DNA of 61,487 nt. It comes from Vulcanococcus limneticus LL (GTDB lineage Bacteria > Cyanobacteriota > Cyanobacteriia > PCC-6307 > Cyanobiaceae). Location of the stretch: assembly GCF_002252705.1 (NCBI RefSeq), contig NZ_NQLA01000015.1:1-61487 (forward strand). The letters run 5' to 3'. The notes below the pieces were generated by a model that did not search any database, was not told where the DNA came from, and saw nothing but the letters and a program-made list of their open reading frames with translations. Both the position numbers and the translations under genes were made by a program. Of the stretch, positions 2,430 to 27,507 are shown one piece after another; the first letter of the stretch is position 1; each line of letters starts with the position of its first letter.

Positions 2430-4610
2430 TTGATGGTCCAACTTCTGGTGTGGATGCAGCGCCTCTCCAGGGGTTCGGTGAATCGGCTGAGCATCAAATC
2501 GAAGCTGATCCTGATGCTTCTGCTGGTGAGCGGCTTCTCCACGCTGTTCTCGGCCGCCCTGGGTTATCGCAGCGGCCAGATCAATCTCACCAATCGGGTC
2601 TTCAATCAGCTCACCAGCGTGCGGGCCTCGAAGGCCTATCAGATCGAATCCTATTTCCGCAACATCCAGAATCACACCCAGACACTCAGTGAAGACCTGT
2701 CGATCGTCGCTGCCGTCCAGCAGTTCGACGCGGCCTATCAACAGCTGAACACGGTCCCTGAACCGGCCGCCGCAGGCCCGGCCGTTGAGACCTACTACCG
2801 CCGGCAGTTCCTGCCGCGACTCGACCGGATCCATGCCGGCACCCCCAATCTGGCGGCCTATCTGCCCGTAGAACGGGCCACCCGCCATCTCCAGTACAAC
2901 TACATCGCCGCCAATCCCAATCCCGTCGGCAAGAAACAGCAGCTCGTGGCCGCCAACGACGGCAGCACCTATTCGCAGGTGCATGGCCGCTATCACCCGA
3001 TCTTTCGCAACATCGTGGCCAGGTTCGGCTACTACGACATGTTCCTGCTCAATCCCAAGGGACAGATCGTCTACACCGTATTCAAGGAGACCGACTACGC
3101 CACCAACCTCTTCACCGGCCCCTACAGGGACACCAATCTCGCCCAGCTGGTGCGGCAGGTGATCAGCGCCCGGGAAAAGGGCTTCACCCAGCTGGTCGAC
3201 TTCGCCGCCTACGCCCCCTCCTACGGCACCCCCGCCTCCTTCATCGCCGCCCCCATCTACGACGGCTCCCGGCTGGTGGGCGTGCTCGCCTTCCAGATGC
3301 CCGTCGACGAGATCAACAACGTGATGACCGGCAACCAGGACTGGCAGCAGGACGGCCTGGGGCAATCCGGCGAGACGATCCTGGTGGGCCACGACAGGCT
3401 CATGCGCTCGGCCTCGCGCTTCTACCTGCAGAACCCCAGGGCCTATCTGGCCCAGCTCCAATCCCGCGGGTTCAAGGAGGAGTCCATCAACCGGCTGCGC
3501 CAGTACGGCACCACGATCCTGCAGCAGCCGGTCTCCACCCCCGCCGTGACCAGCGCCATCGCCGGTGGCAGCGGCACCCGCCAGGTGGTCGACTACCGCG
3601 GCGTGCCGGTGCTCAGTTCCTACGCGCCGCTGCAGATCCAGGGCTTCGACTGGGTGATCCTGGCCCAGATGGACCTGGCGGAGGCCTACGCCCCGATCCA
3701 CGCCTTCCAGCGCCAGATCCTGATCACGGTGACCCTGCTGATCCTGCTGGTGACCGTGCTGGCCATGGCGCTGGCCCACCTGTTCGTCAGACCGGTGCAG
3801 CAGCTGATCGACAGTGCCCGCCGGGTCTCCTCCGGCGAACTCACCAGCATTCCCGCCCTCAACTCCGGCGATGAGTTCGGCGAACTGGGCCAGTCCTTCA
3901 ATGCGGTGGTGCACAGCCTCCAGACCCAGACGGCCCTGGTGGATCAGAAGAACCGCGAGAACGAGAAACTGCTGTTCAGCGTCTTCCCCGCCGCCATCGC
4001 CCGGCGGCTGCAGCGGGGGGAGACCCAGATCGCCGAGGACGTCACCAACGTGGCGGTGCTGTTCGCCGATCTCAAGGGGTTCTCCAGGCTCGTCTCCAGC
4101 CTCAGTGCCCATGAATCGCTGGCGGTGCTCAACGATCTGGTGGCGTCCTTCGATGATCTGGCCGCCCGGTTCGGCCTGGAGAAGGTGAAGACGATCGGCG
4201 ACAGCTATCTGGCGGTGTGCGGCCTCTCGGTGCCCTATCTCGACCACGACAAGCGGGCGCTCGACTTCGCCATCGAGATGCTCGGCATCCTGCGGCGCTT
4301 CAACCTCGAGCGCGGCTTCCAGCTGGGCATCCAGATCGGGATCCACTCCGGCGACATCGTGGCCGGCATCGTCGGCAAGAGCCGGGTCGTGTACGACGTC
4401 TGGGGTGAGACCGTGAAGCAGGCCCACGCCCTCAGCCAGGCCTGTCCCTCCGGCGGCGTGCTCGTCTCCGAGGTGGTGCATCACCGCCTCGAAGACCTCT
4501 ACCCCTTCGAGCGCACCACCACCGGCGGCGAGCCCCAGCCGGCCCGTGAGGCCTGGCGGCTCAGCGGTGCCGCCGTGGCCTCCGCCGGCGAGAGCCTGGC
4601 GAATCCATGA
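2430..4610 (+). CDS. Membrane class III nucleotide cyclase (sensor-HAMP-cyclase), possibly inactive
   Basis: A 726-residue protein with an N-terminal membrane segment (about residues 22-45), a large extracytoplasmic sensor region, a second membrane segment (about 425-450), a HAMP linker starting RPVQQLI and a C-terminal class III cyclase domain (about 535-700). Metal-binding Asp residues are present (VLFADLKGFSRL and KTIGDSYLA) and the Lys/Asp pair typical of ATP-specific enzymes can be seen (VKTIGD, VYDVWG). The usual transition-state motif VNxAxR is replaced by VKQAHA, so both the Asn and the Arg are missing. Start is TTG 2430 or ATG 2433. Its stop overlaps the start of the channel gene by ATGA. 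Confidence 0.85.
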   Translation: MMVQLLVWMQRLSRGSVNRLSIKSKLILMLLLVSGFSTLFSAALGYRSGQINLTNRVFNQLTSVRASKAYQIESYFRNIQNHTQTLSEDLSIVAAVQQFDAAYQQLNTVPEPAAAGPAVETYYRRQFLPRLDRIHAGTPNLAAYLPVERATRHLQYNYIAANPNPVGKKQQLVAANDGSTYSQVHGRYHPIFRNIVARFGYYDMFLLNPKGQIVYTVFKETDYATNLFTGPYRDTNLAQLVRQVISAREKGFTQLVDFAAYAPSYGTPASFIAAPIYDGSRLVGVLAFQMPVDEINNVMTGNQDWQQDGLGQSGETILVGHDRLMRSASRFYLQNPRAYLAQLQSRGFKEESINRLRQYGTTILQQPVSTPAVTSAIAGGSGTRQVVDYRGVPVLSSYAPLQIQGFDWVILAQMDLAEAYAPIHAFQRQILITVTLLILLVTVLAMALAHLFVRPVQQLIDSARRVSSGELTSIPALNSGDEFGELGQSFNAVVHSLQTQTALVDQKNRENEKLLFSVFPAAIARRLQRGETQIAEDVTNVAVLFADLKGFSRLVSSLSAHESLAVLNDLVASFDDLAARFGLEKVKTIGDSYLAVCGLSVPYLDHDKRALDFAIEMLGILRRFNLERGFQLGIQIGIHSGDIVAGIVGKSRVVYDVWGETVKQAHALSQACPSGGVLVSEVVHHRLEDLYPFERTTTGGEPQPAREAWRLSGAAVASAGESLANP

Positions 4611-6076
4611 GCACCCCTGTGCCGCTCTGGATCTGGGGGATCGGCCTCACCATCGGCTTCCCCCTGCTCACGATCCTGCTGGGCGAGCTGATCCATCGCC
4701 TCAGGCGACGCGGCCGCGCCATCGCCGCCACGGTGCGCCTCCTGCGGGACGTGCTGCTGCCGATGCTCGTGCTGCTGCTCTTCCTGCAGCACCTGCTCCA
4801 GGTGGATCCCGCCAGCAGCCTGTTCAAGACCATCGAGACGGTGTTCTGGGTGTGCGTGATCCACGCCGCCCTCTCCCTGCTCAACGTGATCCTGTTCGAG
4901 CAGGCCGAAGCCGACACCTGGCGCTCGCGGGTGCCCAAGCTGCTGATCGATCTGGCCCGCCTGTTCCTGATCCTGCTCGGCACCGCCTTCGTGCTGGCCA
5001 CCGTCTGGAATGCCGATCTGGCGGGCCTGGTCACCGCCCTGGGGGTCAGTTCGATCGTGATCGGCCTGGCCCTGCAGGACACCCTCGGCAGCGTGATGTC
5101 GGGCATCGCCCTGCTGTTCGAGCGGCCCTTCACGGTGGGCGACTGGCTGGAGGTCGGCGGGGTGGTGGGCCAGGTGATCGACATCAACTGGCGTGCCGTG
5201 CGCCTGCTCACCCTGGAGCAGGAGATGGTGGTGATCCCCCACAAGCTGATCAGCAGCGAGGTGATCCGCAACTTCACCAAGCCCACGCCGATCCACGCCG
5301 AACGCATCCGCATCGGCTTTTCCTACAACGATCCCCCCAACCTCGCCCGCCAGGTGCTCAAGAGCACGGCGTTGGAAACCAAGGGCATCCTGCTGGATCC
5401 GGAACCCGATGTCTTCACCCTCGACTACGACGAATCAGCCGTGTCGTATGAAGTGAAGTTCTTCATCCGCGACTATGGCGAGATTGAGCAGATCCGCGAA
5501 CGCTTCATGACGCGCGTGTGGTATGCCGCCAAACGCAACAACCTCTCCATCCCCTTCCCGATCCGCACGGTCTACAACTTCCACGGGCCCACCAGCCAGC
5601 AGAAGGGGCTCGCCAAGAAGTTCAGCGAAAGCCTGCAGGCAATCCCCTCCTACGTGCCGATCAATCGCGAAGAGAGCAGCCTCACGCCGGCCTCCTCCGG
5701 CATCGCGCTCCAGCATTTCGCCGCCGGGGAGAAGGTGATCCGCCAGGGCCAGCTGGGCCATGATCTCTACATCATCGTGGCTGGCCAGGCCCTGATGTCA
5801 CGGCGTGATGGATCCGGTGAAGAGCTCGAACTGCTGTCGCTCCGAAGCGGCGAGTTCTTCGGCGAGATGAGCCTCTTCTCCGGTGAACCCAGCGCCGTGA
5901 CGATCGCCGCCAGCAACGACCTGGAAGTGATGAAGATCTCGGCCACAGTGGTGAACCAGATGATCGATCGCCAGCCCAGCTTCGCCCGCGAGATCGGCCA
6001 GATCCTCGAGAGCCGCCGCCTCACCATCCAGGACACCACCCAGGCCCAGCGGCCATCAACACCGGACAGCCGCTGA
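4607..6076 (+). CDS. MscS-type channel with cyclic-nucleotide-binding domain (bCNG family)
   Basis: A 489-residue inner-membrane protein with several N-terminal membrane helices, an MscS pore and beta-domain segment (GLALQDTLGSVMSGIALLF, then RPFTVGDWLEVGG, and IPHKLI with NFTKP) and a C-terminal CNB domain (about 365-470, GEFFGEMSLFSGEPSAVTIA). The order matches the bacterial cyclic-nucleotide-gated (bCNG) channels known from cyanobacteria. The phosphate-binding Arg expected after GEP is Ser here, so cAMP affinity is doubtful. Coupled by ATGA to the upstream cyclase, which suggests a sensor-channel operon in osmotic or ionic signalling. Confidence 0.88.
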   Translation: MSTPVPLWIWGIGLTIGFPLLTILLGELIHRLRRRGRAIAATVRLLRDVLLPMLVLLLFLQHLLQVDPASSLFKTIETVFWVCVIHAALSLLNVILFEQAEADTWRSRVPKLLIDLARLFLILLGTAFVLATVWNADLAGLVTALGVSSIVIGLALQDTLGSVMSGIALLFERPFTVGDWLEVGGVVGQVIDINWRAVRLLTLEQEMVVIPHKLISSEVIRNFTKPTPIHAERIRIGFSYNDPPNLARQVLKSTALETKGILLDPEPDVFTLDYDESAVSYEVKFFIRDYGEIEQIRERFMTRVWYAAKRNNLSIPFPIRTVYNFHGPTSQQKGLAKKFSESLQAIPSYVPINREESSLTPASSGIALQHFAAGEKVIRQGQLGHDLYIIVAGQALMSRRDGSGEELELLSLRSGEFFGEMSLFSGEPSAVTIAASNDLEVMKISATVVNQMIDRQPSFAREIGQILESRRLTIQDTTQAQRPSTPDSR

Positions 6077-13736: not shown

Positions 13737-15719
13737 ATGGCCATCCGCTTCGGCAGCGACCTCTGCGCTGATCCGGTCGCCGCCGGGCAGCGCGAGTGGC
13801 TGATCAGCAACGGCCTGGGCAGCTACGGCAGCGGCACCGTGGCCGGCCCGCGCACCCGCAGCTACCACGGCCTGCTGGTGGCGGCCCTGGGCGCCCCGGC
13901 CGACCCCTGCACCCGCACCCTGCTGGTGGCCGGCCTGGAGGAGGGCCCGGCGCTCAACCAACGCTCGATGGTGGCCTTCACCCTGGAGGGCAGCGTGCCC
14001 TGCTGGCGCTACGCCATCGGCGATGCCCTGCTGGAGAAACGCCTCTGGATGCAGCCCGGCGCCCACACCACCACCGTGCACTACCGCCTGCTGCAGGCCA
14101 GCCGGCCGCTGGAGCTGCAGATCGCCGTGCTGGTGCACGCCCGCTCCCACCACGGCTACAGCCAAGAGCCGACGATCGACCTGCGGGCCGTGCCCCGGGG
14201 CGTGCAGCTCCGGCCCGACGTGGCCGGCGTGCCGCCCTTCGTGGTGCTCAGCGATCGGGGTCGCACCGAGCTGGCCGCCCCAGGCGATTGGGGCGAGGTG
14301 GCACTCAGCGCCGAGCGGGAGCGGGGCCTCCCCAGCCACGACCGCCCGCTGCGGGCCTGCCGGATCACGGTGGCGCTGAGCAGCGAGGCCCCCACCTTCA
14401 CCCTGGTGGCCAGCACCGAGGCCGCTCCGCCCCTGGATGGGGAGCGCAGCCTGCAGGAACGCTGCCGCCACGACGACGCGCTGCTGCAGCAGTGGCAGGC
14501 GGCCCAACCGCACCTGGCGGACCGCGCCCCCGCCTGGGTGCGGCAGCTGGTGCAGGCCGCCGATCAGTTCGTGGTGGCCCGCACCGGCGCGGGCGAGGGG
14601 GAGGCGGGCCAGACGCTGCTGGCGGGCTACCCCTGGTTCGGCGACTGGGGGCGCGACACGATGATCAGCCTCAGCGGCCTCACCCTGGCCACCGGCCGCC
14701 CCGCCATCGCCGCCCGGATCCTGCGCACCTACGCCGCTCACCTCAGCGCCGGCATGCTGCCCAACCGCTTCCCCGAAGGCGGCGAGCCCCTGGGCGAGCA
14801 CGACTACAACACCGTTGACGCCACCCTCTGGTACGTCGAGGCGCTGCGTCGCTACCACGAGGCCACCGGCGACACAGCCCTGATCCGCGAACTGTTCCCG
14901 CACCTGCGGCAGATCGTGGAAGCCCATTGCCGCGGTACCCGCCACGGCATCCGCCGCGATCCGGTCGATGGCCTGCTCAGCGCCGGCGCCGAGGGGCTGC
15001 AGCTCACCTGGATGGACGCCAAGGTGAACGGCGAGGTGATCACGCCCCGCCGCGGCAAGCCGGTGGAAGTGAACGTTCTCTGGTACTGCGCCCTGCGCTG
15101 CCTGGCCCGCTTCGCGCCGCTGTGCGGGGAAGCCGCCGAGCCCTACGCGGCGCTGGCCGAGCAGGCGCGCGTGGGCTTTCAGCGCTTCTGGAACCCGCAG
15201 ACGGGCTGCTGCTTCGACGTGCTCGATGGCCCAGGCGGCAACCATGAAGCCGCCGTGCGGCCCAATCAGCTGCTGGCGGTGGCGCTCACGGATCAGCTGC
15301 TCAGTGCGCAGCAGGCCCGCCAGCTGCTGGAGATCTGCGGCCAGCGGCTGCTCACGCCAATGGGGCTGCGCAGCCTCGATCTGCGGGATCCGCGCTACGT
15401 GGGCCACTACGGCGGCGGGCCCGTGGCGCGGGATCAGGCCTACCACCAGGGCACGGTGTGGGGCTGGTGGCTCGGGCCCTGGGCCCTGGCCCAGGCCCGC
15501 GTGCAGGGATCGCCCCAGCCGGCGTTGCAGTGGCTGGAGGCCATCGGCGATCACCTGGCCGCCGCCGGGCTCGGCAGCGTCAGCGAGATCTTCGATGGCG
15601 ATCCGCCCCATGCGCCCCGCGGCTGCATCGCCCAGGCCTGGTCTGTCGCGGAAGTGCTGCGCGCCTGGACGGAGCTCTCGATGATGCAGGTTCAGGCGCA
15701 AGCCCCGGAGCCACGCTGA
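13737..15719 (+). CDS. Glycogen debranching enzyme / amylo-alpha-1,6-glucosidase (GH133 type)
   Basis: A 660-residue enzyme with an N-terminal bacterial GDE domain (REWLISNGLGSYGSGTVAG, RSYHGLLVAAL) and a C-terminal (alpha/alpha)6 glucosidase domain from about residue 260. Core motifs are AGYPWFGDWGRDTMISLSGL, PNRFPE, YNTVDATLWYVEAL, LTWMDAK and HQGTVWGWWLGPWA, with the acidic catalytic residues in the GRDT and DAK regions. It should remove alpha-1,6 branches from glycogen or limit dextrins. The stop overlaps the start of the GH57 gene as TGATG, so the two enzymes are made together for alpha-glucan turnover. Confidence 0.9.
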   Translation: MAIRFGSDLCADPVAAGQREWLISNGLGSYGSGTVAGPRTRSYHGLLVAALGAPADPCTRTLLVAGLEEGPALNQRSMVAFTLEGSVPCWRYAIGDALLEKRLWMQPGAHTTTVHYRLLQASRPLELQIAVLVHARSHHGYSQEPTIDLRAVPRGVQLRPDVAGVPPFVVLSDRGRTELAAPGDWGEVALSAERERGLPSHDRPLRACRITVALSSEAPTFTLVASTEAAPPLDGERSLQERCRHDDALLQQWQAAQPHLADRAPAWVRQLVQAADQFVVARTGAGEGEAGQTLLAGYPWFGDWGRDTMISLSGLTLATGRPAIAARILRTYAAHLSAGMLPNRFPEGGEPLGEHDYNTVDATLWYVEALRRYHEATGDTALIRELFPHLRQIVEAHCRGTRHGIRRDPVDGLLSAGAEGLQLTWMDAKVNGEVITPRRGKPVEVNVLWYCALRCLARFAPLCGEAAEPYAALAEQARVGFQRFWNPQTGCCFDVLDGPGGNHEAAVRPNQLLAVALTDQLLSAQQARQLLEICGQRLLTPMGLRSLDLRDPRYVGHYGGGPVARDQAYHQGTVWGWWLGPWALAQARVQGSPQPALQWLEAIGDHLAAAGLGSVSEIFDGDPPHAPRGCIAQAWSVAEVLRAWTELSMMQVQAQAPEPR

Positions 15720-17200
15720 TGAGTCCCCACGCCCTGCCACCGATCGCCGGCCGCGAAGCCGAGATCCTGGCCCTGGTGCAGCAGAATGAGCCGCTGGTGC
15801 TGCCGGAAACCGCCCTCGATCTGGCCCAGATCCGCTCCGGCTTTGCCTGCGCGCTGCACATGCATCAGCCCACGATCCCCGCCGGGGCCCAGGGGGAACT
15901 GATCTCCCATCTCCAATACATGGTGGAGCACCCAGGCGAGGGCGATAACCACAACGCCGAAGCCTTCGCCCAGTGCTATCGGCGCCTGGCCGACCTCCTG
16001 CCCCAGCTGATCGCCGAGGGCTGCAACCCGCGGATCATGCTGGATTACTCCGGCAATCTGCTCTGGGGCGTCGAGCAGATGGGTCGCCGCGACATTGTGG
16101 AGGCGCTGCAGCAGCTGGCCTGTGATCCGGCGCTGCAACCCCATGTGGAGTGGCTCGGCACCTTCTGGAGCCATGCCGTGGCCCCCTCCACGCCGATCCC
16201 CGATCTGAAGCTGCAGATCCTGGCCTGGCAGCACCATTTCGAGGCCCTGTTCGGGCCTGAGGCCCTGCAGCGGGTGAAGGGCTTCTCCCCGCCGGAGATG
16301 GCCCTGCCCAACCACCCCGACACGCTCTACGAATTCGTGAAGGCCCTGCGGGAGTGCGGCTACCGCTGGCTGCTGGTGCAGGAACACAGCGTGGAGAACC
16401 TCGATGGCTCCGCCCTGGGCCACGAGCAGCGCTACATCCCCAATCAGCTGGTGGCGCGCAACACCAGGGGTGAAACGGTGAGCATCACCGCCCTGATCAA
16501 AACCCAGGGCTCCGACACGAAGCTGGTGGGGCAGATGCAGCCGTATTACGAAGCCCTGGGACTGAACCGGGTGGCGCTGGGTGGCACCACCATTCCGGCC
16601 CTCGTGTCCCAGATCGCCGATGGCGAGAACGGCGGCGTGATGATGAACGAATTCCCCCAGGCCTTCATCCAGGCCCACCGGCGCATCGCCGCCGAGGCTG
16701 GTGGCCGCACCGGCACGGTGGCCATGAATGGAACGGAGTATCTGGAGCTGCTGGAGGCCGCAGGGGTGGATGCTGCCGACTTTCCCCGGATTCAGGCCGT
16801 GCAGCAGCACAGGCTCTGGCAACAGCTGGACCGCCCCGCCACACCTGAAGCAGTGCGGGCCGCGATCGCCGAGCTCCAGGCCCACGACCCCGGCTTCTCG
16901 ATGGCCGGCGCCTCCTGGACCAACAACCTCAGCTGGGTGGAGGGCTACGCCAACGTGCTCGAGCCGATGATCGGCCTCAGCGCCGCCTTTCACCAGCGCT
17001 TCGACCCCCTGGTGGCCGCCGACCCCGCGGTGACCCGCAGCGAGCCCTACCAGCGGGCCCTGCTGCAGCTGCTGCTGCTGGAAACCAGCTGCTTCCGCTA
17101 CTGGGGCCAGGGCACCTGGACCGACTACGCCAGCGAGATCCACCGGCGCGGGGTGGCGCAGCTGGAGGCGGCGCCGGGGCTCAGCCTGCCCCGGGCGTAG
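15719..17200 (+). CDS. Glycoside hydrolase family 57 protein
   Basis: A 493-residue GH57-type enzyme. The N-terminal catalytic barrel shows CALHMHQPTIP (conserved HxHQP), LDYSGNLLWG, EWLGTFWSHAVAPSTP, the PPEMALP segment that carries the likely Glu, and LLVQEHSVENLDG. Family members are alpha-amylases, 4-alpha-glucanotransferases, amylopullulanases or branching enzymes; the exact specificity cannot be settled here. ATG 15719 overlaps the debranching gene stop. Its end overlaps the convergent doxX gene by 20 bases. Confidence 0.87.
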   Translation: MSPHALPPIAGREAEILALVQQNEPLVLPETALDLAQIRSGFACALHMHQPTIPAGAQGELISHLQYMVEHPGEGDNHNAEAFAQCYRRLADLLPQLIAEGCNPRIMLDYSGNLLWGVEQMGRRDIVEALQQLACDPALQPHVEWLGTFWSHAVAPSTPIPDLKLQILAWQHHFEALFGPEALQRVKGFSPPEMALPNHPDTLYEFVKALRECGYRWLLVQEHSVENLDGSALGHEQRYIPNQLVARNTRGETVSITALIKTQGSDTKLVGQMQPYYEALGLNRVALGGTTIPALVSQIADGENGGVMMNEFPQAFIQAHRRIAAEAGGRTGTVAMNGTEYLELLEAAGVDAADFPRIQAVQQHRLWQQLDRPATPEAVRAAIAELQAHDPGFSMAGASWTNNLSWVEGYANVLEPMIGLSAAFHQRFDPLVAADPAVTRSEPYQRALLQLLLLETSCFRYWGQGTWTDYASEIHRRGVAQLEAAPGLSLPRA

Positions 17201-17855
17201 CGCGCAGGGAAGGCGTCAGGCCCATGCTCGCGGCAGTGCTCTCAGCGCCCTCCTGCTGCCGCAGTTCATCCCCCAGAAGTTCGCGGGCAATGCCCGCATC
17301 AAAGGAGTAGCGCCCGGGCCCCAGCAGCAGCAGGCCGACACTGCCGCCCAGATAGAGCACCACCAGCTCCAGCACGTAGATGTTGAGCCCGCTGGTGAGG
17401 ATGTGGTGGTAGCCCGCCACCGCCATCGTGCCGCTCAGCGCCAGGGCCCCCAGCGGTGTGAACAGGCCGAAGATCAGCAGCCAGGAGCCCAGGATTTCCG
17501 CGTAGCCCGCCGCGTAGGCCATCAGCAGCGGGAAGGGCAGGTGCAGCGCCGCCACGTAGTTGGTAGCGAAGCCCTGGGGATCGGCGAGCTTGTCCTGGCC
17601 GTGGTGGATCATCATCACGCCGATGGCCAGCCGCAGCAGCAGCAGGCCCAGGCTCTGCAGCCGGCCCTGGCCCAGGAGGTAGCCGCGCAGGCCCTGCCGC
17701 AGGCCGGCCGGCAGGCGCCAGGCGGCCCCGGAAGCCCACGGCTCCGCGGCCGACGCGGCAGCCGGCGCCGGGGCGGCCTCGCCCCTCAGCAGGCCAATGG
17801 TGAGCGTGGAGGCGCAGATGCCCGCCAGGATCTCCAGGGGCAGGGGAATGGCCAT
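17181..17855 (-). CDS. DoxX-family membrane protein
   Basis: A 224-residue integral membrane protein of the DoxX family: the signature LGLLLLRLAIGVMMIHHGQDK is followed by membrane segments containing AYAAGYAEILGSWLLIFGLF, PLGALALSGTMAVAGYHH and LELVVLYLGGSVGLLLLGPG. DoxX proteins are linked to respiratory or redox stress functions in some bacteria. ATG 17855 is chosen; a longer frame upstream adds an unrelated low-complexity leader. The tail overlaps the GH57 gene on the other strand. Confidence 0.85.
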   Translation of the reverse strand: MAIPLPLEILAGICASTLTIGLLRGEAAPAPAAASAAEPWASGAAWRLPAGLRQGLRGYLLGQGRLQSLGLLLLRLAIGVMMIHHGQDKLADPQGFATNYVAALHLPFPLLMAYAAGYAEILGSWLLIFGLFTPLGALALSGTMAVAGYHHILTSGLNIYVLELVVLYLGGSVGLLLLGPGRYSFDAGIARELLGDELRQQEGAESTAASMGLTPSLRATPGAG

Positions 17856-17949
17856 GGCCGAGTCGTCAGTGCAGACACTCTGGCAAGCCTCGTAACGGAA
17901 CGTGAAGAAGCTGAGAGCACGCCTGGGGGCCGCGGCGGGCGAAGGCTGC

Positions 17950-18615
17950 CTACCAGGGCAGCACCTCGCCGTTGGCATGCCAGAAGGTGCCGGAGCTCTC
18001 CAGCGTGAGCGCGTCGATGCGGGCCAACAGCCCCCGTACCGCCTCCTCCGGGCTGATCCCCTGCGGGTTGAAGCTGATCATGCGCGTGCGCACCAGGCCA
18101 GGGTGCAGGATCGCCACGGCGATGCCGCGGGGCCGCAGGTCGATCGCCAGGGATCGGCCCGCCATGTTCAGCGCCACCTTCGACATCCGGTAGCCGTAGG
18201 AGCCGCCGGAGCCGTTGTCGTCGATCGAGCCCATGCGGCTCGTCATCAGGATCAGCTTGGCTCCGCTCGGCAGCTGATCCAGCAGGGCCCGGGTGAGCCG
18301 CAGCGGCGCCAGGGCGTTCACCTCGAACTGGCGCCGCACGCTCTCCACGTCCAGGTCCTCCAGGCTCGTGGCTTCGAGGATGCCGGCATTGAGGATCAGG
18401 CCATCGATCGGCAGCCCATCCAGCCGCTCCACCAGGTGGGTGATGGCGGCCTCGCTGGTGAGCTCCACGCCCGCCTCGAGGCGCACCCCCAGGGCCTCCA
18501 GCTCGGGCGAGGCCGTGCGGCAGACGGCGATCACCGTTTCCCCCCGCGCCTGCAGCTGGCGGCAGTACTCCAGACCGATGCCGCCGCTGGCACCGGTGAC
18601 CAGATACGTGGACAT
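17950..18615 (-). CDS. Short-chain dehydrogenase/reductase
   Basis: A 221-residue classical SDR. It has the nucleotide-binding TGASGGIG motif near the N-terminus, LNAG in the middle, Ser in TSRMGS and the catalytic YRMSK pair (YxxxK). The end reads SSGTFWHANGEVLPW, a C-terminus typical of a small clade of bacterial SDRs. ATG 18615 (MSTYLVTG) is the start; the open frame upstream has no such sequence. Substrate unknown. It follows the DUF389 gene by 50 bases on the same strand. Confidence 0.88.
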   Translation of the reverse strand: MSTYLVTGASGGIGLEYCRQLQARGETVIAVCRTASPELEALGVRLEAGVELTSEAAITHLVERLDGLPIDGLILNAGILEATSLEDLDVESVRRQFEVNALAPLRLTRALLDQLPSGAKLILMTSRMGSIDDNGSGGSYGYRMSKVALNMAGRSLAIDLRPRGIAVAILHPGLVRTRMISFNPQGISPEEAVRGLLARIDALTLESSGTFWHANGEVLPW

Positions 18616-18665
18616 GGCGGTCAGACCCAGGGTGGCCCCCATCCTCCAGCGCCCCGGGCCCGGCT

Positions 18666-19682
18666 TCAGCCGGCTCCCGTGGCCAGCTCCAGCGTGCGGG
18701 ATTCGACCACCTTCACCCGCAGCGTGCGGCCGAACAGGCTGCCGCGCGCGCGCTCCTCGAGGGTGTTGAGCGGCGGCAGGGGCCCCTCGCCCAGCAGCAG
18801 CAGGTTCACCGATCCATCCGCCGTCTCGGCGTCCACCGCGTGGATCCGGTAGTCCGAGCCCTGCAGCCACGTGGCGGCCAGGGCCTGGGTGCGGGCCGCC
18901 ACCTTGTTGGTGATGATCAGGCTGTAACTGGTGAGCGAGAGCGGGATCGCGATCACCACCAGAGCCACCAGGGCAATCCCCAGCGAGCGGCGCCGGGCCC
19001 GCGGATCGAACGGGGAGAGGGCCGCCCGCCGGAATCCCATCAGTGAAAACACAAGGGAGCCCGTCAGCAGGATGGCCACATAGTTCGTGCCAAACAACAG
19101 CAGGCTGCCGGAGGCCAGGCCGGGTTCACCCAGGGCGAACAGGATCCCCGCATTGGCCAGCGGAGGCACCAGCGACACGGCGATCGCAACGCCGGGCAGG
19201 GTGTCGGACACATCCCGTCTGGCCAGGGCGAAGGCTCCGGCCAGGCCGGTCACGAACGCCGCCATCAGGTCGAGCAGATGGGGTGCGGTGCGCACCATGA
19301 TCTGCTGGATCGCCTCCGGCTGCTTCACCTGGGCGATCGGGAGCGCCAGGAGAAAACCCACGGCCACGGCCGTTGCGATGCCGGCCACACTCACGAGCAG
19401 GGTGCTGACAATGGCCCGGCGATCGCCGATGCTGACGCTGAACGCCAGCCCCATGATCGGCAGCATCAGGGGCGCCACGATCATCGCCCCGATCACCACC
19501 GCCAGCGAATCCCCCAGCAGGCCGTAGGTGGCGATGCTCGAGGCCAGCACCAGCAGGCAGAGAAACTTCAACACATTCGGCCATAATTTTGGCCCGTGAA
19601 AGACCAACACCTCCCTGACCCGTTCGACCTCATCCAGGCCCACCGGGCCCCCGTGCAACATCTCACCGACTGAGCGGGCCAT
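18666..19682 (-). CDS. DUF389 (TIGR00341-type) integral membrane protein
   Basis: A 338-residue polytopic membrane protein of the DUF389 family. The consensus block is clear: YGLLGDSLAVVIGAMIVAPL followed by MLPIMGLAFSVSIGD, and later ALARRDVSDTLPGVAIAVSL with VPPLANAG. About seven membrane helices are followed by a C-terminal soluble tail. Function is unknown; transport is often guessed. A 7-bp inverted repeat (gtctgtc, 9 bases, gacagac at 19694-19716) lies just upstream of its start. Confidence 0.88.
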   Translation of the reverse strand: MARSVGEMLHGGPVGLDEVERVREVLVFHGPKLWPNVLKFLCLLVLASSIATYGLLGDSLAVVIGAMIVAPLMLPIMGLAFSVSIGDRRAIVSTLLVSVAGIATAVAVGFLLALPIAQVKQPEAIQQIMVRTAPHLLDLMAAFVTGLAGAFALARRDVSDTLPGVAIAVSLVPPLANAGILFALGEPGLASGSLLLFGTNYVAILLTGSLVFSLMGFRRAALSPFDPRARRRSLGIALVALVVIAIPLSLTSYSLIITNKVAARTQALAATWLQGSDYRIHAVDAETADGSVNLLLLGEGPLPPLNTLEERARGSLFGRTLRVKVVESRTLELATGAG

Positions 19683-19789
19683 GGCCTGTTGAGGTCTGTC
19701 AATGGCACCGACAGACTGACAGGCGGTTGACCAGATTCAGCCCAATTCAGACCCCTGGGTTCACAGGCATTCACCAGGGTGATGACCCC

Positions 19790-19863
19790 GTTCGCTCCGC
19801 CCGCGTCTGCAGCCTCCGCAGCCCATCCTCAGGGGTGTAGCCCTGCGGGTTGATGGCCACCTT
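19790..19863 (-). pseudogene. Short-chain dehydrogenase C-terminal fragment
   Basis: In one minus-strand frame this stretch reads KVAINPQGYTPEDGLRRLQT, closely parallel to MISFNPQGISPEEAVRGLLA in the intact SDR at 17950-18615. An in-frame stop (TAG) precedes it and no other part of the SDR fold is nearby. It appears to be a remnant of an SDR gene once placed behind the TetR regulator, and it overlaps the last codons of that regulator in another frame. Confidence 0.45.
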
Positions 19864-20482
19864 CTAGATCCGCACGCCGTGGCGAGCCGCTGGCTCCGAT
19901 CCTGTGCAGCTCCATGTGGGCGTCCAGGAGTTCATGGGCGCGTCGCAGGCGCTCGGGGTCGTTGGTCTTGGCGACCCAGGAGGCCAGGGCATTCAGGGAT
20001 CCGCTCAGCTGGTAGGTGAAGCCCTCCACATCCACGGTCTGGAGCATGCCGTCCTGGACGGCCTTCTCGATTTCCTGCAGGAGCAGGCTGAAGCCGGGCC
20101 TGTCGAGCTCCGCCAGGGTGTCGACGGAGAGAAAGGCGGGGGCTTCGATGAACAGCAGCCGGCGCAGATCCTCCCGCGCCGCGCTGTCCAGGCAGGCGTG
20201 GCATCCCACCACAAGGCGGTCCCAGGTGGAGGGCAACGGGGCAATCCTGGCCCTGATGTCGCCCGTGATCTCGTCGAGCACCTCGGCGATCACCGCGGCA
20301 AGCACCGCCTGCTTGTCCTGGAACTGGTGGTAGAGGGCGCCCCGGGTGACCCCGAGCCCGCGGATGAGTTCCTCGGTGCCGGTGGCCGCGTATCCCTGGG
20401 CGGCGAACAGGTGACGCGCGCGCTCCAGGATGGCGCGGCGGGTCCGCTGGGTCTGCTCCGCCTTGCTCAGGCCCGAGGCCAC
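19829..20482 (-). CDS. TetR-family transcriptional regulator
   Basis: A 217-residue regulator with an N-terminal TetR helix-turn-helix: TRRAILERARHLFAAQGYAA, then GTEELIRGLGVTRGALYHQF and DKQAVLAAVIAEV. The C-terminal ligand domain is variable (LFIEAPAFLS). Start is GTG 20482. The last 13 residues run into an SDR gene relic and may be an altered tail. It is divergent from a putative dehydrogenase gene; two palindromic sites lie in the 94-base gap, so it very likely represses that gene and itself. Confidence 0.87.
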   Translation of the reverse strand: MASGLSKAEQTQRTRRAILERARHLFAAQGYAATGTEELIRGLGVTRGALYHQFQDKQAVLAAVIAEVLDEITGDIRARIAPLPSTWDRLVVGCHACLDSAAREDLRRLLFIEAPAFLSVDTLAELDRPGFSLLLQEIEKAVQDGMLQTVDVEGFTYQLSGSLNALASWVAKTNDPERLRRAHELLDAHMELHRIGASGSPRRADLEGGHQPAGLHP

Positions 20483-20497
20483 GGCTCCAATTCCAGA

Positions 20498-20516
20498 GAT
20501 TCAGACAGTATGGATC
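20498..20516. promoter_or_regulatory. Degenerate TetR operator
   Basis: The 19-base sequence gattcagacagtatggatc matches the perfect palindrome at 20542-20560 at 15 of 19 positions and keeps the cagac core of the half-site. It lies 15 bases upstream of the regulator's GTG, where it would serve autorepression. Confidence 0.55.
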
Positions 20517-20540
20517 TTGACGGGGCCGGGGCGACGCTTT

Positions 20541-20561
20541 AGATACAGACTGTCTGTATCT
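20541..20561. promoter_or_regulatory. Perfect palindromic TetR operator
   Basis: A 21-base perfect inverted repeat with half-site agatacagac around a central t at 20551. It is placed 15 bases before the GTG of the downstream dehydrogenase-like gene, just ahead of its ggagg ribosome binding site. Size and symmetry are those of a TetR-family operator. Confidence 0.8.
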
Positions 20562-20576
20562 GTTGGAGGCGCGCCC

Positions 20577-21650
20577 GTGCCCTCAAAGTCGGAGGCCGTC
20601 CTGATCGCCGGCGGCTACGGCGTCGTCGGTGAGCAGATCGCCGCCTGTCTGCGCCGGAGGTATCCCGAATTGCCCCTGGTTCTGGCCGGCCGGTCGCGAT
20701 CCAGGGGCGAAGCAGTGGCAGCCAGGCTTGGCCACGCCACCGCCACGGTGATGGACGTGACCCGCCCACACCCCCTGGGCGAGCCCATCCCCAGGGCCGT
20801 GGTCGGAGCCGTGAACGATCCCGGCGATCACCTGCTCAAGGACGCGATCCGCCTCGGGGTGCCCATCGTGGACATCACCCGATGGACGGCACGGTTGCGC
20901 GCCAGGGCCGTGGCGGGCCTGGCGCCCCGATCGCCGGTTCTGCTGGCCTCGGGCTGGATGGCCGGACTCGCCTCAGTCGCCGCCGTGGCGGCCTCGCGAC
21001 CACTCCAGCTGGTCGAGAGCATTGCCATCAGCGTTCTCTACGCCCTGCAGGACAGGGCCGGGCCGAATTCCGCGGCCTACATGGATCGCCTGGCCACCCC
21101 GTTCGAGGTGATGCAGGCCGGAGCCCGGCAGACGGTGCTCCCCTTCACTGACCCGCGCCGGATCACCTTTCCGGATGGACAGGAGGCCAGGGTCTACCGC
21201 TTCGACACGCCGGACCAGCTGCTGTTGCCCCGCTCGACGGGCGCGGCCAGCGTGGCGGCCCGCATCGGCTTTGACAGCGCGGCAACGACGCGGATCCTGG
21301 CGCTGCTCGTCCGTTCCGGGCTGTGGAAGCGGATCAGCGGCGAGCGCTTCACCGACCTGCGCCGGGCCCTGCTCTTTCATCCCGGGCCCGGGGCCAGCCA
21401 TCAGATCGTGGTCGACGCTGATGGCCTGGACCCGTCCGGTGAAGCCAGGTCGGTGCGTGCCACGCTCAGCGATCCCCTGGGCCAGACCCATCTGACGGCC
21501 GTAGGAGCGCTGGTGCAGCTGGAGCGACTGCTGGGCCTCGATGGGGCTGCACCGCCGCCGCCGGGTCTGGCCTACCCCGACAGCGCCCCCCAGATCCAGG
21601 CGGCCCGCCGCACCCTGGAGAGATTCGGAGTGTCGATGACCCTGGCCTGA
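20577..21650 (+). CDS. Saccharopine dehydrogenase-like NAD(P)-binding protein
   Basis: A 357-residue protein with an N-terminal Rossmann segment (AVLIAGGYGVVGEQIAACL) and the general layout of saccharopine dehydrogenase-like oxidoreductases (GVPIVDITRW, LASGWMAG). Start is GTG 20577 with ggagg at 20565-20569. Catalytic activity and substrate are not identifiable. Divergent from the TetR gene and preceded by a strong operator, it is probably the regulator's main target, perhaps induced by a small hydrophobic compound. Confidence 0.8.
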   Translation: MPSKSEAVLIAGGYGVVGEQIAACLRRRYPELPLVLAGRSRSRGEAVAARLGHATATVMDVTRPHPLGEPIPRAVVGAVNDPGDHLLKDAIRLGVPIVDITRWTARLRARAVAGLAPRSPVLLASGWMAGLASVAAVAASRPLQLVESIAISVLYALQDRAGPNSAAYMDRLATPFEVMQAGARQTVLPFTDPRRITFPDGQEARVYRFDTPDQLLLPRSTGAASVAARIGFDSAATTRILALLVRSGLWKRISGERFTDLRRALLFHPGPGASHQIVVDADGLDPSGEARSVRATLSDPLGQTHLTAVGALVQLERLLGLDGAAPPPPGLAYPDSAPQIQAARRTLERFGVSMTLA

Positions 21651-21760
21651 GGCCGTGCTGCACGGCTGCGGCTCCGGATTCCGCCCTGCGGTGGACTCTG
21701 CTCAGGCCCCTGGCGGCCGCAGAGCGCCTACGGGATCGTGAGGCCCCGGACCCCACCCAT

Positions 21761-23230
21761 GTGAACGTCGACCAGCTGCAGCGCCTCTTCACGGCACCCC
21801 TGTTTCCCCTGGGCCGCCAGAACCTCTCGCTGCTCTGGATCCTGGAGGTGCTGCTCCTGCTGCTGGCCGTGAGCCTGGCGGCACGCTGGCTCAAGCGCCT
21901 GCTGGCCGGCCGGGTGCTGCTCTGGTTCGCCCTGTCTGAGGGGCGTCGTGAGGCGCTGGCCACCCTCGCCTCACTGGCCCTGGCCGCCCTCGGGTACGTG
22001 GTGGTGGCCCAGGGGATGGGGCTCGACTTCGGGGCCCTGGCGGTGATCTTCGGGGCCCTGGGGGTGGGGGTGGGCTTCGGGCTGCAGGAGCTCACCCGCA
22101 ACCTCAGCAGCGGCCTCACCCTGCTGATGGAGGGCAAGCTCAAGGTGGGCGACCTGATCGAATTCGGCAGCACCGGCGGCTTCATCCGGGAGATCTCGAT
22201 CCGCTCCACCGTGATCCGCACCTTCCAGGGCGCCGAGATCGTGGTGCCCAATTCGGCGATCACGAGCGGGCCCGTGAAGAACCTCAGCTACTTCTCCCGC
22301 GATGGGCGGGTGGATGTGGCGGTGACCGTGGCCCATGGCAGTGATGCCCTGGCCGTGACCGAGGTGCTGCTGGAGGCGGCGCTGGCCGAGCCCACCGTGC
22401 TGCCGGATCCACCGCCGAAGGTGCTGCTGCACGGCCTCGGAGAGCGGGGGCTGCAGTTCGAACTCTGGGTGTGGACCTCGGCGATCCACGCCGGAGTCAG
22501 CCTGCGCAGTTCCCTCAACTACGCCATCGACCACGGACTCCGGGAGCGGGGCATCGACCTGGCCGGGACCCTGCAGCAGATCCAGCTGCTCTCCCCCGGC
22601 CGCAGTGCGGAGCAGCAGGCCCCGATGGCACCCGACCGGCCGCCGCTGCGCGGGGCCCTGCCCGATCACCCCTGCTTTAACGGCCTGGATCCGCGGGGTC
22701 TGCGGGAGCTGGTGGGCAGTGGTGCCCGCCGCAGCGTGCCGGCGGGCACGGTGCTGATTCGCCAGGGCGAGGCGGGTCGCGCCTTCCACCTGGTGCTGAG
22801 CGGGGCCGTGGACGCCATCCATGAAACGGAACGGGTGAGCCGGCGCCTGTTCACCTTCGCCGCGGGCGAGTTCTTCGGTGAACTGCCGCTGCTGCTGCAG
22901 GTGCCCTACCCCACCACGATGATCGCCACCCAGGACACCACCCTGTTCGTGGTTCCCAGCGGCAGCTTCCGCTCCCTGCTGGCCTCCCGGCCTGAATTTG
23001 CCGACACCGTGGCCCGGGAGGTGGCCCGTCGCAACGACGTGCTGAGCAGCTACGAGGGCTGCCTGCGCCAGCGCGGGCTGCTCGACGATGCCGACCTGAG
23101 TCACCCGCTGCAGTGGTTCCGCGAGAAGCTGCGGCGGGTGCTCACGGGGCAGTCGTCGGTGGTCCCAGCTGGGCAGGCAGCCGCACGGATCGAACAGATC
23201 GAGACGCCGCAGAGCAGAGTGGACCCTTGA
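21761..23230 (+). CDS. Second MscS-type channel with CNB domain (bCNG family)
   Basis: A 489-residue membrane protein with three or more N-terminal helices, an MscS core (DFGALAVIFGALGVGVGFGL, QELTRNLSSGLTLLMEGKL, VVPNSAITSGPVKN) and a C-terminal CNB domain (GRAFHLVLSGAVDAI, GEFFGELPLLLQVPYPTTMI). Its MscS part differs from the channel at 4607, being closer to canonical MscS. The Arg normally found in the phosphate cassette is Tyr. Start GTG 21761. There is no cyclase gene beside it; a 48-residue membrane protein gene follows at once. Confidence 0.87.
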   Translation: MNVDQLQRLFTAPLFPLGRQNLSLLWILEVLLLLLAVSLAARWLKRLLAGRVLLWFALSEGRREALATLASLALAALGYVVVAQGMGLDFGALAVIFGALGVGVGFGLQELTRNLSSGLTLLMEGKLKVGDLIEFGSTGGFIREISIRSTVIRTFQGAEIVVPNSAITSGPVKNLSYFSRDGRVDVAVTVAHGSDALAVTEVLLEAALAEPTVLPDPPPKVLLHGLGERGLQFELWVWTSAIHAGVSLRSSLNYAIDHGLRERGIDLAGTLQQIQLLSPGRSAEQQAPMAPDRPPLRGALPDHPCFNGLDPRGLRELVGSGARRSVPAGTVLIRQGEAGRAFHLVLSGAVDAIHETERVSRRLFTFAAGEFFGELPLLLQVPYPTTMIATQDTTLFVVPSGSFRSLLASRPEFADTVAREVARRNDVLSSYEGCLRQRGLLDDADLSHPLQWFREKLRRVLTGQSSVVPAGQAAARIEQIETPQSRVDP

Positions 23231-23243
23231 GCGGGAGCGAACG

Positions 23244-23390
23244 GTGAAAGAGATCAGTCCTGGGGAGCTGCTGCTCCGGATCGCCGGCCGCTTCGCGGCG
23301 GTGTCGGGCGTGATCGCCTTGGTGATCTGGCTCACCTGGGTGATGCTCGATGTGAAGAGCATGCAGTCGGGCTTCACGCTCCCCTACTGA
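23244..23390 (+). CDS. Small single-span membrane protein, 48 aa
   Basis: A 48-residue protein starting at GTG 23244, 13 bases after the bCNG channel stop, with a likely ribosome site (gggagcga). It has one hydrophobic helix (FAAVSGVIALVIWLTWVMLD). Position suggests co-expression with the channel, maybe as an accessory subunit. No family recognised. Confidence 0.5.
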   Translation: MKEISPGELLLRIAGRFAAVSGVIALVIWLTWVMLDVKSMQSGFTLPY

Positions 23391-23456
23391 GCCCCCCTAC
23401 CGAAGCGGGGCCCACCGCCGCCACTGGAGGCAGACCCTGGCCCGCGACCCTCGGGC

Positions 23457-23876
23457 TCAGCCCACAAAGCGCCGGTAGAGCCAGCGCACGAAGCCGCCCA
23501 GCACGGGCACCGGCGCAAAGGTGGGCCCCACGAAATCGAAGTAATCGCGGTGATCCACGATCCTGCCTTCAGCGTTGAACAGCAGACGGGTGGTGCCGGA
23601 GTAGATGAACTCGATGCCCTTGATCTTCAGGCCCATCTCCCACTCCACGAAGGCCGTGCTGCCGTCGATCGCGATGGCCCCGGGGGTCACGTAGACGTCG
23701 TCGCAGCGGCGCAGCAGACCCTCCTGGGCCGCCAGGTAGGCGGCGAGGCCGTGCGTCTCCTGGGTGGGGTCCTGGAAGTGCACGTCGTCGGTGTAGGCCG
23801 CCCGCCACTGGGCTTCAGTCGGGGCCGGAGCGCCGTAGGGCTTGGTGAACAGGGCCTTCAGGCTGGTGGAGTCCAC
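23457..23876 (-). CDS. NTF2/SnoaL-like fold protein
   Basis: A 139-residue protein with the pattern of a nuclear transport factor 2-like domain: W-rich start with YTDDVHFQDPTQETHGLAAY, a central FVEWEMGLKIKGI strand, and GRIVDHRDYFDF near the end. Such proteins bind small hydrophobic ligands or act as isomerases; no catalytic role can be assigned. It runs on the minus strand and ends 66 bases from the small membrane protein gene. Confidence 0.75.
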   Translation of the reverse strand: MDSTSLKALFTKPYGAPAPTEAQWRAAYTDDVHFQDPTQETHGLAAYLAAQEGLLRRCDDVYVTPGAIAIDGSTAFVEWEMGLKIKGIEFIYSGTTRLLFNAEGRIVDHRDYFDFVGPTFAPVPVLGGFVRWLYRRFVG

Positions 23877-23906
23877 GCAGGGCGCCGGGGAGAAAGGCCG
23901 TTCAGC

Positions 23907-24353
23907 CTATGGATGGGCCCCGGCCGGCGGCGGCGCTGGGGTGACCTCCGGATCCAGCGGCAACCCGCGCAGGGCCAGGGCGCCGCGGCGGGCGAGCAGC
24001 AGCAGCGGGTAGAGGCGCCGGGCCCGCGAGGGGGTGGCCAGCAGGGGGGCGAGCAGCTGCAGCAGGGCGGCGGAAGGCGTCATCTGGGCACAAAGCCACT
24101 GGATCGCCGCGGCACCGTGCAGCACCTGCTCACCCACCAGCAGCACGGCACCATCCGTGAGGGCGTAACCGCGCTGGGCCAGCTGGCGCCGCAGGGCGTG
24201 GTCGGCGCGGCCATCGCGGATCTGCAGGCCAGGGATGCCGCTGCGCAGTTCGCTGAGCTGGGCGAAGTGGCGGCAGAACAGGCAGCCGCCATCGAACACC
24301 AGCACGGGGGCCGGTGGGGTGGGGAGCTGGCCGGGTTCCGAGGGATGAGCCAT
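23907..24353 (-). CDS. DCC-family thiol-disulfide oxidoreductase-like protein (DUF393)
   Basis: A 148-residue protein of the DCC1-like family, defined by a DxxC motif and a CxxC redox pair. Here the block reads VLVFDGGCLFCRHF. It continues with LTDGAVLLVGEQVLHGAAAI, also typical. The start ATG 24353 (MAHPSEP) gives the usual length; an open frame continues upstream without similarity. Divergent from aroB, with 121 bases between starts. Confidence 0.82.
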   Translation of the reverse strand: MAHPSEPGQLPTPPAPVLVFDGGCLFCRHFAQLSELRSGIPGLQIRDGRADHALRRQLAQRGYALTDGAVLLVGEQVLHGAAAIQWLCAQMTPSAALLQLLAPLLATPSRARRLYPLLLLARRGALALRGLPLDPEVTPAPPPAGAHP

Positions 24354-24474
24354 GGCCCCACTCTGACGGGGGCGTTCTGGAAGCGGGGGACGACCGACGG
24401 GCCCAACCCCCTCAGGCCACCGCCGTAGCCTCAGCCCAGCCTGCCGACCTGCCGCCCTGGCCGCTCCCACCGCC

Positions 24475-25641: not shown

Positions 25642-26015
25642 GCTCCCCCCTCCAGCTCCGGCAGGAACTGCTCCAGAAAGGCCGCCAGCGGCATCGGCCC
25701 GCAGCGGCGCTGCCAGCCGCCGCAGCCGGGGTAGAGGCGCCAGCACTCCAGCTGCAGGGCCTGGCGACGCCTGGGGCAGTGGCGCAGCCGGTAGCGGTAG
25801 AGAGCCAGGGTGTCCTGCTCGGGGGCAGCCACGGGCTGGGCCTGGGGCTGGCAGATCCGAAAGCCCTCCAGCAGCTCCGCCGGGCCGCCCGCCAGTTCCA
25901 GGGCCTCCACGTAGCAGCAGGCCGCCGCTCCTGGATCCACCACATGCGGCAGATGCAGGTGCAGGGGCGCCCCGCCGGCGAAACCGTGGAAGCTGTGCAG
26001 GGATCCAGGGGCCAT
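25569..26015 (-). CDS. Conserved-looking protein of unknown function, 148 aa
   Basis: A 148-residue protein starting at ATG 26015 ([15 protein letters not shown]). It contains [22 protein letters not shown] and a Cys/Trp-rich stretch ([19 protein letters not shown]) before an acidic [11 protein letters not shown] segment. The last 25 codons overlap aroB on the opposite strand, so the final part may be read through weakly conserved sequence. I do not recognise the family. It is placed 53 bases after the methyltransferase stop and is probably co-transcribed. Confidence 0.5.
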
Positions 26016-26068
26016 GGGGGCAGCCGCAACACTGCTCACCAGTGCCCACCCCGTTCCAGCCGCTGCCG

Positions 26069-27457: not shown

Positions 27458-27507
27458 GGCGGCGCGGCGGGCTCGGTGAGAATGCTGGCCACTCTGGAAC
27501 AGTCGCC

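Follow-up and report, generated by a model that had tools for sequence, protein, structure and literature searches.

In the cyanobacterium Vulcanococcus limneticus LL (contig NZ_NQLA01000015.1, assembly GCF_002252705.1), a gene for a class III cyclase-like protein overlaps a gene for a channel with a cyclic-nucleotide-binding domain (CNB), and both proteins lack residues that such a signalling route would use. This raises the question of how the first protein could act on the second. The window analysed here is the whole stretch of 61,487 nt, in which the pair is laid out as follows:

2433–4610, + strand: pseudo-cyclase gene, 725 aa, with ATG at 2433 (the listed open reading frame, 2430–4610, starts from TTG at 2430)
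2568–3692, + strand: dCache-like sensor, residues ~46–420 (Pfam dCache_1 under the cut-off; strands and helices in the model)
3771–3923, + strand: HAMP domain, residues 447–497 (Pfam)
4035–4499, + strand: cyclase-homology domain (CHD, Guanylate_cyc), residues 535–689 (Pfam, E 2.1e-38)
4416–4430, + strand: degenerate transition-state motif VKQAHA, with K662 for Asn and A666 for Arg (homologue alignment)
4607–6076, + strand: MscS-type channel gene with a C-terminal CNB, 489 aa (open reading frame and Pfam)
5078–5551, + strand: MscS beta and alpha/beta domains, residues 158–315 (Pfam MS_channel_2nd and MS_channel_3rd)
5711–5971, + strand: CNB, residues 369–455 (Pfam cNMP_binding, E 1e-18)
5891–5893, + strand: Ser429 where the phosphate cassette would have its Arg (alignment with homologues)

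The TGA stop codon of the first gene (4608–4610) shares bases with the ATG of the second (4607–4609), confirming the ATGA overlap from which the original prediction, made from the sequence alone, had started. In its putative membrane topology, the first protein runs from an N-terminal transmembrane segment (TM) through the periplasmic dCache-like sensor, a further TM and the HAMP domain to the CHD. Its AF2 model (mean pLDDT 85.2) has the class III cyclase-homology fold in the CHD (against 1azs_A: Z 26.0, rmsd 2.5, 186 aligned). The structure matches of the whole model were taken up by this domain and hardly probed the sensor fold, for which a sequence search (E up to 1) returned no solved relative; invariant positions were seen in the sensor region across 73 homologues. 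The second protein, with MscS domains followed by a CNB, has the architecture of the bCNG channels; its model matches MscK (7uw5, Z 17.3), and the predicted CNB fold is intact (match to 4muv, Z 17.6). The earlier description of a cyclic-nucleotide-gated-type channel is compatible with this, the actual type being MscS (bCNG-like) and not a P-loop CNG channel.

For the role of each catalytic and cassette position we assume what holds for mammalian adenylyl cyclase and PKA. Aligned with its homologues and also with adenylyl cyclase 9, the window cyclase reads DKDDKA at the six catalytic positions against the canonical DKDDNR: both metal Asp (D546, D590) and the Lys/Asp base pair (K586, D655) are retained, and K662 and A666 stand in place of the Asn and Arg of VNxAxR. 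Judged from these residues and the model, the protein would count as a class III cyclase by its fold and not by its catalytic residues. In the channel, Ser429 replaces the Arg that the phosphate-binding cassette of bCNG channels has, and the Glu (E420) is retained. Every residue claim of the original prediction is confirmed by this alignment.

Spread and linkage of the gene pair

A channel of the same subfamily lies directly downstream, on the same strand, in 110 of 130 homologous cyclase open reading frames, with a gap of ≤100 nt in 99 of these pairs. Within the 130 frames there are 124 distinct CHD cores, and within the 110 paired frames 105, some genomes having come from both collections and two frames being pieces of one gene (L167). 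The channel stands upstream of the cyclase at L228, as does a channel fragment at L229, and each genome with one of the 7 unlinked cyclases has a channel elsewhere. Among 388 genomes of the cyanobacterial class, 77 carry both genes, 5 only the cyclase, 2 only the channel and 304 neither (co-occurrence tested by Fisher, with kinship ignored). The pair is also found in planctomycete and actinobacterial genomes, and is a conserved module.

Searches through two phyla scored the best few candidates per genome, the other listed matches being without most or all of the CHD. In 299 genomes from the phylum of G540 (the L100 genome, a MAG labelled as a proteobacterium), the sole full-length match besides the centre was an intact orphan cyclase, L297; the 199 genomes from the phylum of G543 (a planctomycete MAG, L104) gave no full-length match besides the centre. 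L297 and five cyclases on rhizobial plasmids (L290–L294) form the sister group, and L290–L294 are 37.7 to 39.0% identical to the window protein over 91 to 94% of its length. These six orphans share its dCache-HAMP-CHD architecture but, unlike it, keep all six catalytic residues (6/6) and have no channel within the fetched flanks.

Loss of catalytic and cassette residues

After near-duplicate CHDs (>93% alike) had been taken out, 92 of 93 family CHDs were found to lack at least one of the six catalytic residues, and 7 lack all six. The lost residues vary between lineages, and none of the six is kept throughout the 93 rows: 48 rows have lost the first metal Asp and 41 the second, and the fewest changes on the tree are 15 for the first metal position, 8 for Lys, 6 for the second metal position, 5 for the base Asp, 10 for Asn and 7 for Arg. 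A dCache-HAMP protein without a CHD (L233) was excluded from this tree, and its 27 canonical rows, selected for reading DKDDNR, cannot tell what share of unpaired CHDs is intact. The combined loss of Asn and Arg seen in the window is typical of its own clade, but other clades lost metal Asp residues instead; the Synechococcus lacustris type (L095) is a member lacking them. Thirty open reading frames read DKDDNA, many cyanobacterial members being without the Arg alone, and one paired cyclase (L188) retains all six residues. Unpaired control CHDs keep the residues in 32 of 40 cases, a count biased to canonical domains because the control loci were picked by similarity or best Pfam score (one of them, L116, offered no complete CHD). 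In eight pairs from the window's clade, the dN/dS of the CHD is 0.03 to 0.15, indicating purifying selection. A globin match at the C-terminus of three members would suit a signal relay.

For the channels, 12 of the 110 paired sequences were excluded because the match ended early; 7 were cut off or garbled, and the other 5 (L099, L200, L204, L205, L207) have no Arg at the Ser place either. With the reverse-order channel of L228 added, 99 remained, and the cassette Arg is absent in 98 of them, Ser standing there in 90. Glu420 is conserved in 76 and lost in 23, and the cassette is hard to make out in actinobacterial and planctomycete pairs. An Arg occurs within three columns in 10 of the 99, so that a shift of the motif could explain few of the losses. 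Of the 18 unpaired MscS-CNB paralogues that were usable (L056 was excluded for a misread frame), 17 keep the Arg; the paired channels differ from the unpaired paralogues at numerous conserved positions, among them E27, T78, R118 and W134. The original prediction of joint divergence would have failed if close relatives kept the residues or if the motif had moved to nearby columns; neither proved to be the case, so the prediction is supported, and the observation behind it, itself confirmed, was if anything put too modestly.

A proposed receptor-channel mechanism and its alternatives

The recurrence of the residue-poor pair in several bacterial groups suggests that a sensor works the channel by touch, without a messenger. 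We think it probable that the two genes encode a module in which a pseudo-cyclase receptor gates an MscS channel by direct contact. The first protein would be a receptor in the membrane, with a dCache sensor on the periplasmic side, a HAMP relay and a CHD that has ceased to make cyclic nucleotide; the second would be an MscS-type channel with a CNB that has ceased to bind a cyclic phosphate. Signals from the periplasm would pass through the HAMP domain to the pseudo-cyclase dimer, and the dimer would gate the channel by direct contact, the old cyclase and CNB folds being reused as a docking and transmission pair. The gene coupling, the co-occurrence, the residue losses, the retained predicted folds and, for the window's clade, the purifying selection are results of the analysis; the inactivity, the contact and its surfaces, and the direction of the signal are inferred. 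The original prediction had offered either a shared unusual ligand or protein-protein regulation, and the evidence leans to the second: which catalytic residues are gone depends on the lineage, unlike what a common new nucleotide chemistry would predict. Decay specific to lineages, in genes under purifying selection, is easier to reconcile with a contact-gating pseudo-cyclase receptor than with a shared odd nucleotide. Several points count against the contact model: a dimeric receptor would presumably meet a heptameric channel with a mismatch of symmetry, the strong conservation of Ser429 leaves room for some ligand of the CNB, and L188 has all six catalytic residues.

Mutual information with APC over 98 pairs (effective 57.7) gave no coevolution enrichment for a CHD-CNB contact (60 among the top 1000 vs 68.9 expected). 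Pairings of the CHD with TM3 and with the MscS body were in excess, as were those of the first TM of the cyclase, and the best inter-protein score lay above every intra-protein score, which points to common descent and not to contact. A single open reading frame over both genes in Leifsonia aquatica (L096) was rejected as a fusion that would prove contact: it misses one base compared with L099, within a run rich in C close to the end of the cyclase, and was kept out of the evidence since it may reflect a frameshift or an error.

The alternative that survives best, though we regard it as unlikely, is a CNB that binds a neutral, non-phosphate ligand, e.g., a nucleoside, with the pseudo-cyclase as a co-regulator or as a sensor of that ligand in its old nucleotide pocket. 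The conservation of Ser429 (90/99) and Glu420 (76/99) would fit, a trypanosome PKA structure (6flo, Z 16.3) is among the fold matches of the CNB, and excerpts of a study of the trypanosomatid PKA regulatory subunit describe a CNB without the cassette Arg (Thr318 stands at its place) that binds nucleosides such as inosine and not cAMP; changes of the kind that would turn Ser429 into Arg restored cyclic-nucleotide binding in the trypanosome kinase (PMC10959531). However, the loss of Glu420 in 23 of 99 channels and the barely recognisable cassette of actinobacterial and planctomycete pairs speak against this reading.

Less probable still, at roughly one chance in ten by our estimate, is that the cyclases are active with slow or altered chemistry, using another NTP or making another product that the channel reads. 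In the window clade the two metal Asp are retained together with the Lys/Asp base pair, and the complete L188 and the 30 DKDDNA frames point the same way, but 48 and 41 of 93 rows lack the first and the second metal Asp, after at least 15 and at least 6 changes on the tree, not one of the six residues is universal, and 98 of 99 channels miss the Arg to hold any cyclic phosphate.

A signal in the reverse direction, from a tension-sensing channel to a receptor that serves as regulated output or brake, is very unlikely: the channel domain is MscS-like and one published bCNG channel is said, in the title of a paper, to be tension-gated, but the sensor-like domain with its invariant positions across 73 homologues resembles an input, and a dead CHD leaves no output function. 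Least probable of all is a heterodimer in which another CHD protein supplies the missing residues, as in C1 and C2 of mammalian adenylyl cyclase, for the three further CHD proteins above the Pfam cut-off in the same genome are distant (54.7 to 72.6 bits vs 135.4 for the window protein) and the losses hit the metal half or the base/transition-state half depending on lineage, so that no constant partner half would fit.

Returning to contact gating, we put at about even the chance of its broader form, a widespread two-gene bacterial ligand-gated channel in which a pseudo-cyclase opens an MscS channel via a dead CNB without a second messenger, a messenger pathway having turned mechanical by independent loss of chemistry at both ends.

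Relation to known systems

The window channel has its MscS pore and C-terminal CNB in common with bCNG channels (MscS superfamily) and differs from them in the missing cassette Arg and in the cyclase-like partner encoded alongside. The anti-phage Pycsar systems likewise pair a class III cyclase-like protein with a neighbouring CNB effector, which may be one that acts on membranes, and they require a working cyclase. In the window a CNB effector does stand beside the cyclase, though its effector domain is an MscS channel, and the cyclase is no intact PycC-type enzyme, having lost residues and reaching at best a weak PADLOC match to PycC, of 39.6 bits across the CHD. The PADLOC TIR-effector matches of the channel are weak and run through the CNB stretch only.

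In excerpts of the KCNH literature (EAG/ERG/ELK), a CNB-homology domain without direct cyclic-nucleotide regulation makes a regulatory contact with another cytoplasmic domain (PMC7515569). This is the feature shared with the module proposed here; unlike the window pair, KCNH channels belong to another pore family, the partner is the PAS domain of the channel itself, and an intrinsic ligand motif is described as filling the CNB-homology pocket. The trypanosomatid PKA regulatory subunit, as excerpted, shares with the window channel a CNB without the cassette Arg, but is a nucleoside binder that regulates a kinase.

Among titles and abstract starts of openly licensed papers, we found none on this pair of genes or on an MscS-CNB channel combined with a catalytically dead cyclase, which, given this range of sources, is weak evidence of novelty. 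Enzyme domains turned signal relays are already known; in this case both ends of one pathway, sender and receiver, would have lost their chemistry, in a gene pair kept across phyla. Messenger-free gating of the channel is directly testable, with the intact orphan sister lineage as a built-in control. The labels 'adenylate cyclase' and 'cyclic-nucleotide-gated channel' would mislead for a pair that is common in cyanobacteria (77 of 388 sampled genomes).

Upstream of the pair, the window holds a nucleotidyltransferase, a HepT-like gene and a HicB-like match; the nucleotidyltransferase and HepT-like gene were seen again at 1 other of 12 compared homologous loci (L063), 3 kb further off.

The cyclase and channel genes of the window

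According to the original prediction, the cyclase stop overlaps the channel start, and the ORF listing of the sequence bears this out:

2430-4610, cyclase ORF, with an ATG at 2433
4607-6076, channel ORF, ATGA being common to its start and the cyclase end

Pfam assigned dCache (sub-threshold), HAMP and Guanylate_cyc domains to the cyclase and MscS beta, MscS C-terminal and cNMP_binding domains to the channel. AlphaFold2 models based on homologue alignments had mean pLDDT values of 85.2 for the cyclase (73 rows) and 80.1 for the channel (66 rows). In structure comparisons, the model of the cyclase-homology domain (CHD) matched the adenylyl cyclase catalytic domain 1azs_A (Z 26.0, rmsd 2.5, 186 aligned), and the channel model matched the cyclic-nucleotide-binding (CNB) domain 4muv (Z 17.6, rmsd 3.1, 115 aligned) and MscK 7uw5 (Z 17.3, rmsd 7.8, 316 aligned). 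The six catalytic positions, the roles of which we take to be those in the mammalian cyclase (first metal Asp, base Lys, second metal Asp, base Asp, Asn and Arg), read D546, K586, D590, D655, K662 and A666 in alignment with homologues, i.e., DKDDKA versus the canonical DKDDNR, and the channel has Ser429 where Arg is expected in its phosphate cassette, FGEMSLFSGEPSAVT. Both proposed losses, that of Asn/Arg with the metal Asp and Lys/Asp pairs kept and that of the CNB Arg, were thus recovered. Upstream in the window, overlapping nucleotidyltransferase and HepT-like genes (148-943, Pfam) are likely to form a toxin-antitoxin pair, and an ORF at 1248-1634 has a HicB-like antitoxin match.

Linkage and co-occurrence of the two genes

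Within the GTDB family of the host, 12 of 201 genomes contained a total of 13 full-length cyclase homologues, three with an in-frame stop and all adjoined by a channel homologue. In an all-against-all comparison, only the cyclase and the channel were common to all 13 loci, with a few neighbours common to two or three. At L072 (genome G069), an in-frame TAG follows the first part of the cyclase gene and the channel is open.

A scan of named genomes yielded 45 loci, which, by the organism names in the sequence records, include Cyanobium, Synechococcus, Leptolyngbya, Argonema, Leifsonia, Humibacillus, Micropruina, planctomycete MAGs and a MAG labelled proteobacterium; 86 more stretches (L149-L234) were taken around cyanobacterial-class cyclase matches. 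The merged set held 130 ORFs scoring >300 bits against the cyclase profile, 110 of which had a same-strand downstream channel (≤100 nt away in 99). The other 20 comprised nine at contig ends, seven unlinked (each with a channel elsewhere in the genome), two with an upstream channel or channel fragment (L228, L229), one doubtful fusion (L096) and one ORF that is not a cyclase (L233). At L096 (5809-9513, Leifsonia aquatica), cyclase and channel form one ORF through a one-base difference from L099. Among 388 cyanobacterial-class genomes, the cyclase was found in 82 (E ≤ 1e-80) and the channel in 79 (E ≤ 1e-100), with both in 77, only the cyclase in five and only the channel in two (Fisher p 1.8e-72, kinship ignored). 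One cyclase-only genome (G389) is that of L233 and the matches in the other four lie at contig ends; both solitary channels are near contig ends, and the contig of one (G257) seems to be the one on which L116, with its cyclase fragment, lies.

Residue loss in sender and receiver

Residue loss is general in the CHDs of this cyclase family, but not uniform. Of the six catalytic residues, the 93 non-redundant family CHDs kept six in 1, five in 25, four in 25, three in 14, two in 11, one in 10 and none in 7. A single paired cyclase has the full set (L188 1290-3518, genome G494), and its channel still has Ser for Arg; another CHD gene lies ~2.3 kb past that channel on the opposite strand. From 46 loci with a CHD, six were family members and the other 40 served as controls: 32 had DKDDNR, seven had other base residues, which we take to be those of class IIIb cyclases (one also without Asn), and one (L112) was missing Arg. 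A tree separated the 93 family CHDs from 27 canonical CHDs, which had been chosen because intact (SH-aLRT 99). The minimum changes, counted blind to loss or regain on a rapidly built tree in which some branches are long, were 15 for the first metal Asp, 8 for the base Lys, 6 for the second metal Asp, 5 for the base Asp, 10 for Asn and 7 for Arg. The 13 same-family loci formed three clades: Asn and Arg were lost in the window's clade (seven); Gln replaced the first metal Asp and Arg was lost in the second (three); both metal Asp and Arg were lost in the third (three), with base Asp changed to Glu and base Lys to Arg. CHD dN/dS was 0.03 to 0.15 (eight pairs, window's clade), so this is not a decaying gene in that clade. 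Globin matches were observed at the C-terminus of three members, each keeping at most one of the six residues (L224 3325-6066, minus strand; L227 1463-4090, plus strand; L229 3380-5938, minus strand, just below the Pfam cut-off).

Among 99 paired channels, 90 have Ser at the Arg column and one has Arg (L101, the rest of whose cassette is unlike the canonical one); Arg occurred ≤3 columns away in 10 of the 99. Aligned homologues show loss on both sides, with 92/93 family CHDs lacking at least one catalytic residue and 98/99 paired channels lacking Arg. Unpaired MscS-CNB paralogues numbered 19; for three of them, the 1.5 kb flanks contained weak matches to the cyclase profile, at 15 to 21 bits. 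With L056 set aside as misread, 17 of 18, including the window channel's own paralogue L002, kept Arg; L003, in the window, has Tyr. In the window, the second channel of MscS type with a CNB domain by Pfam spans 21761-23230, and Tyr takes the place of Arg in its cassette, PYPTTM; the cyclase profile had no match within 15000-30000.

A full-length cyclase homologue occurs on plasmids of Sinorhizobium, Ensifer and Pararhizobium: 33 plasmid records had a match, which in 19 covered ≥80% of the query. No channel-profile match was present in the 5 kb flanks of five of these (L290-L294) or in the 1.5 kb flanks of L297, and each of the six retained DKDDNR. On the tree, the six are sister to the 93 family CHDs, with support of 90 for the join, 100 for the six themselves and 99 for the 93. 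A channel search of plasmids matched nothing but Azospirillum, at 25 to 27% identity. As far as plasmids and these flanks show, loss therefore goes with having a channel partner and not with the architecture.

A proposed relay role for the cyclase fold

The CHD fold as a relay rather than an enzyme would fit best, and direct contact with the channel would be the simplest link. In KCNH channels, a nucleotide-free CNB-like domain can have a regulatory contact with a second domain (PMC7515569). A coevolution test gave no support for CHD-CNB contact. Positions conserved in pairs and not in controls include E509 and N510 (before the CHD), C596, S599, R608 (98%) and W708 in the cyclase and many in the channel, Ser429 among them. 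The conservation of this Ser in paired channels leaves room for a neutral ligand of the channel CNB, for which trypanosome PKA (PMC10959531) offers a precedent. As to the original choice between a shared non-canonical ligand and a sensor fold with protein-protein regulation, a shared new nucleotide would be expected to predict one consistent active-site substitution, but the lineages differ in whether metal, base or transition-state residues have failed, which argues for the relay role instead.

The component parts are already known, and what may be new, going by openly licensed literature, is a conserved gene pair in which both partners show the loss; the literature searched, with most subscription journals outside its reach, yielded no report of it. 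The dCache-HAMP sensor half of the cyclase also matched methyl-accepting chemotaxis proteins in plasmid records H34-H43 (Salinivibrio, Cereibacter, Leisingera, Pseudoalteromonas), and the sensor is thus common to several outputs.
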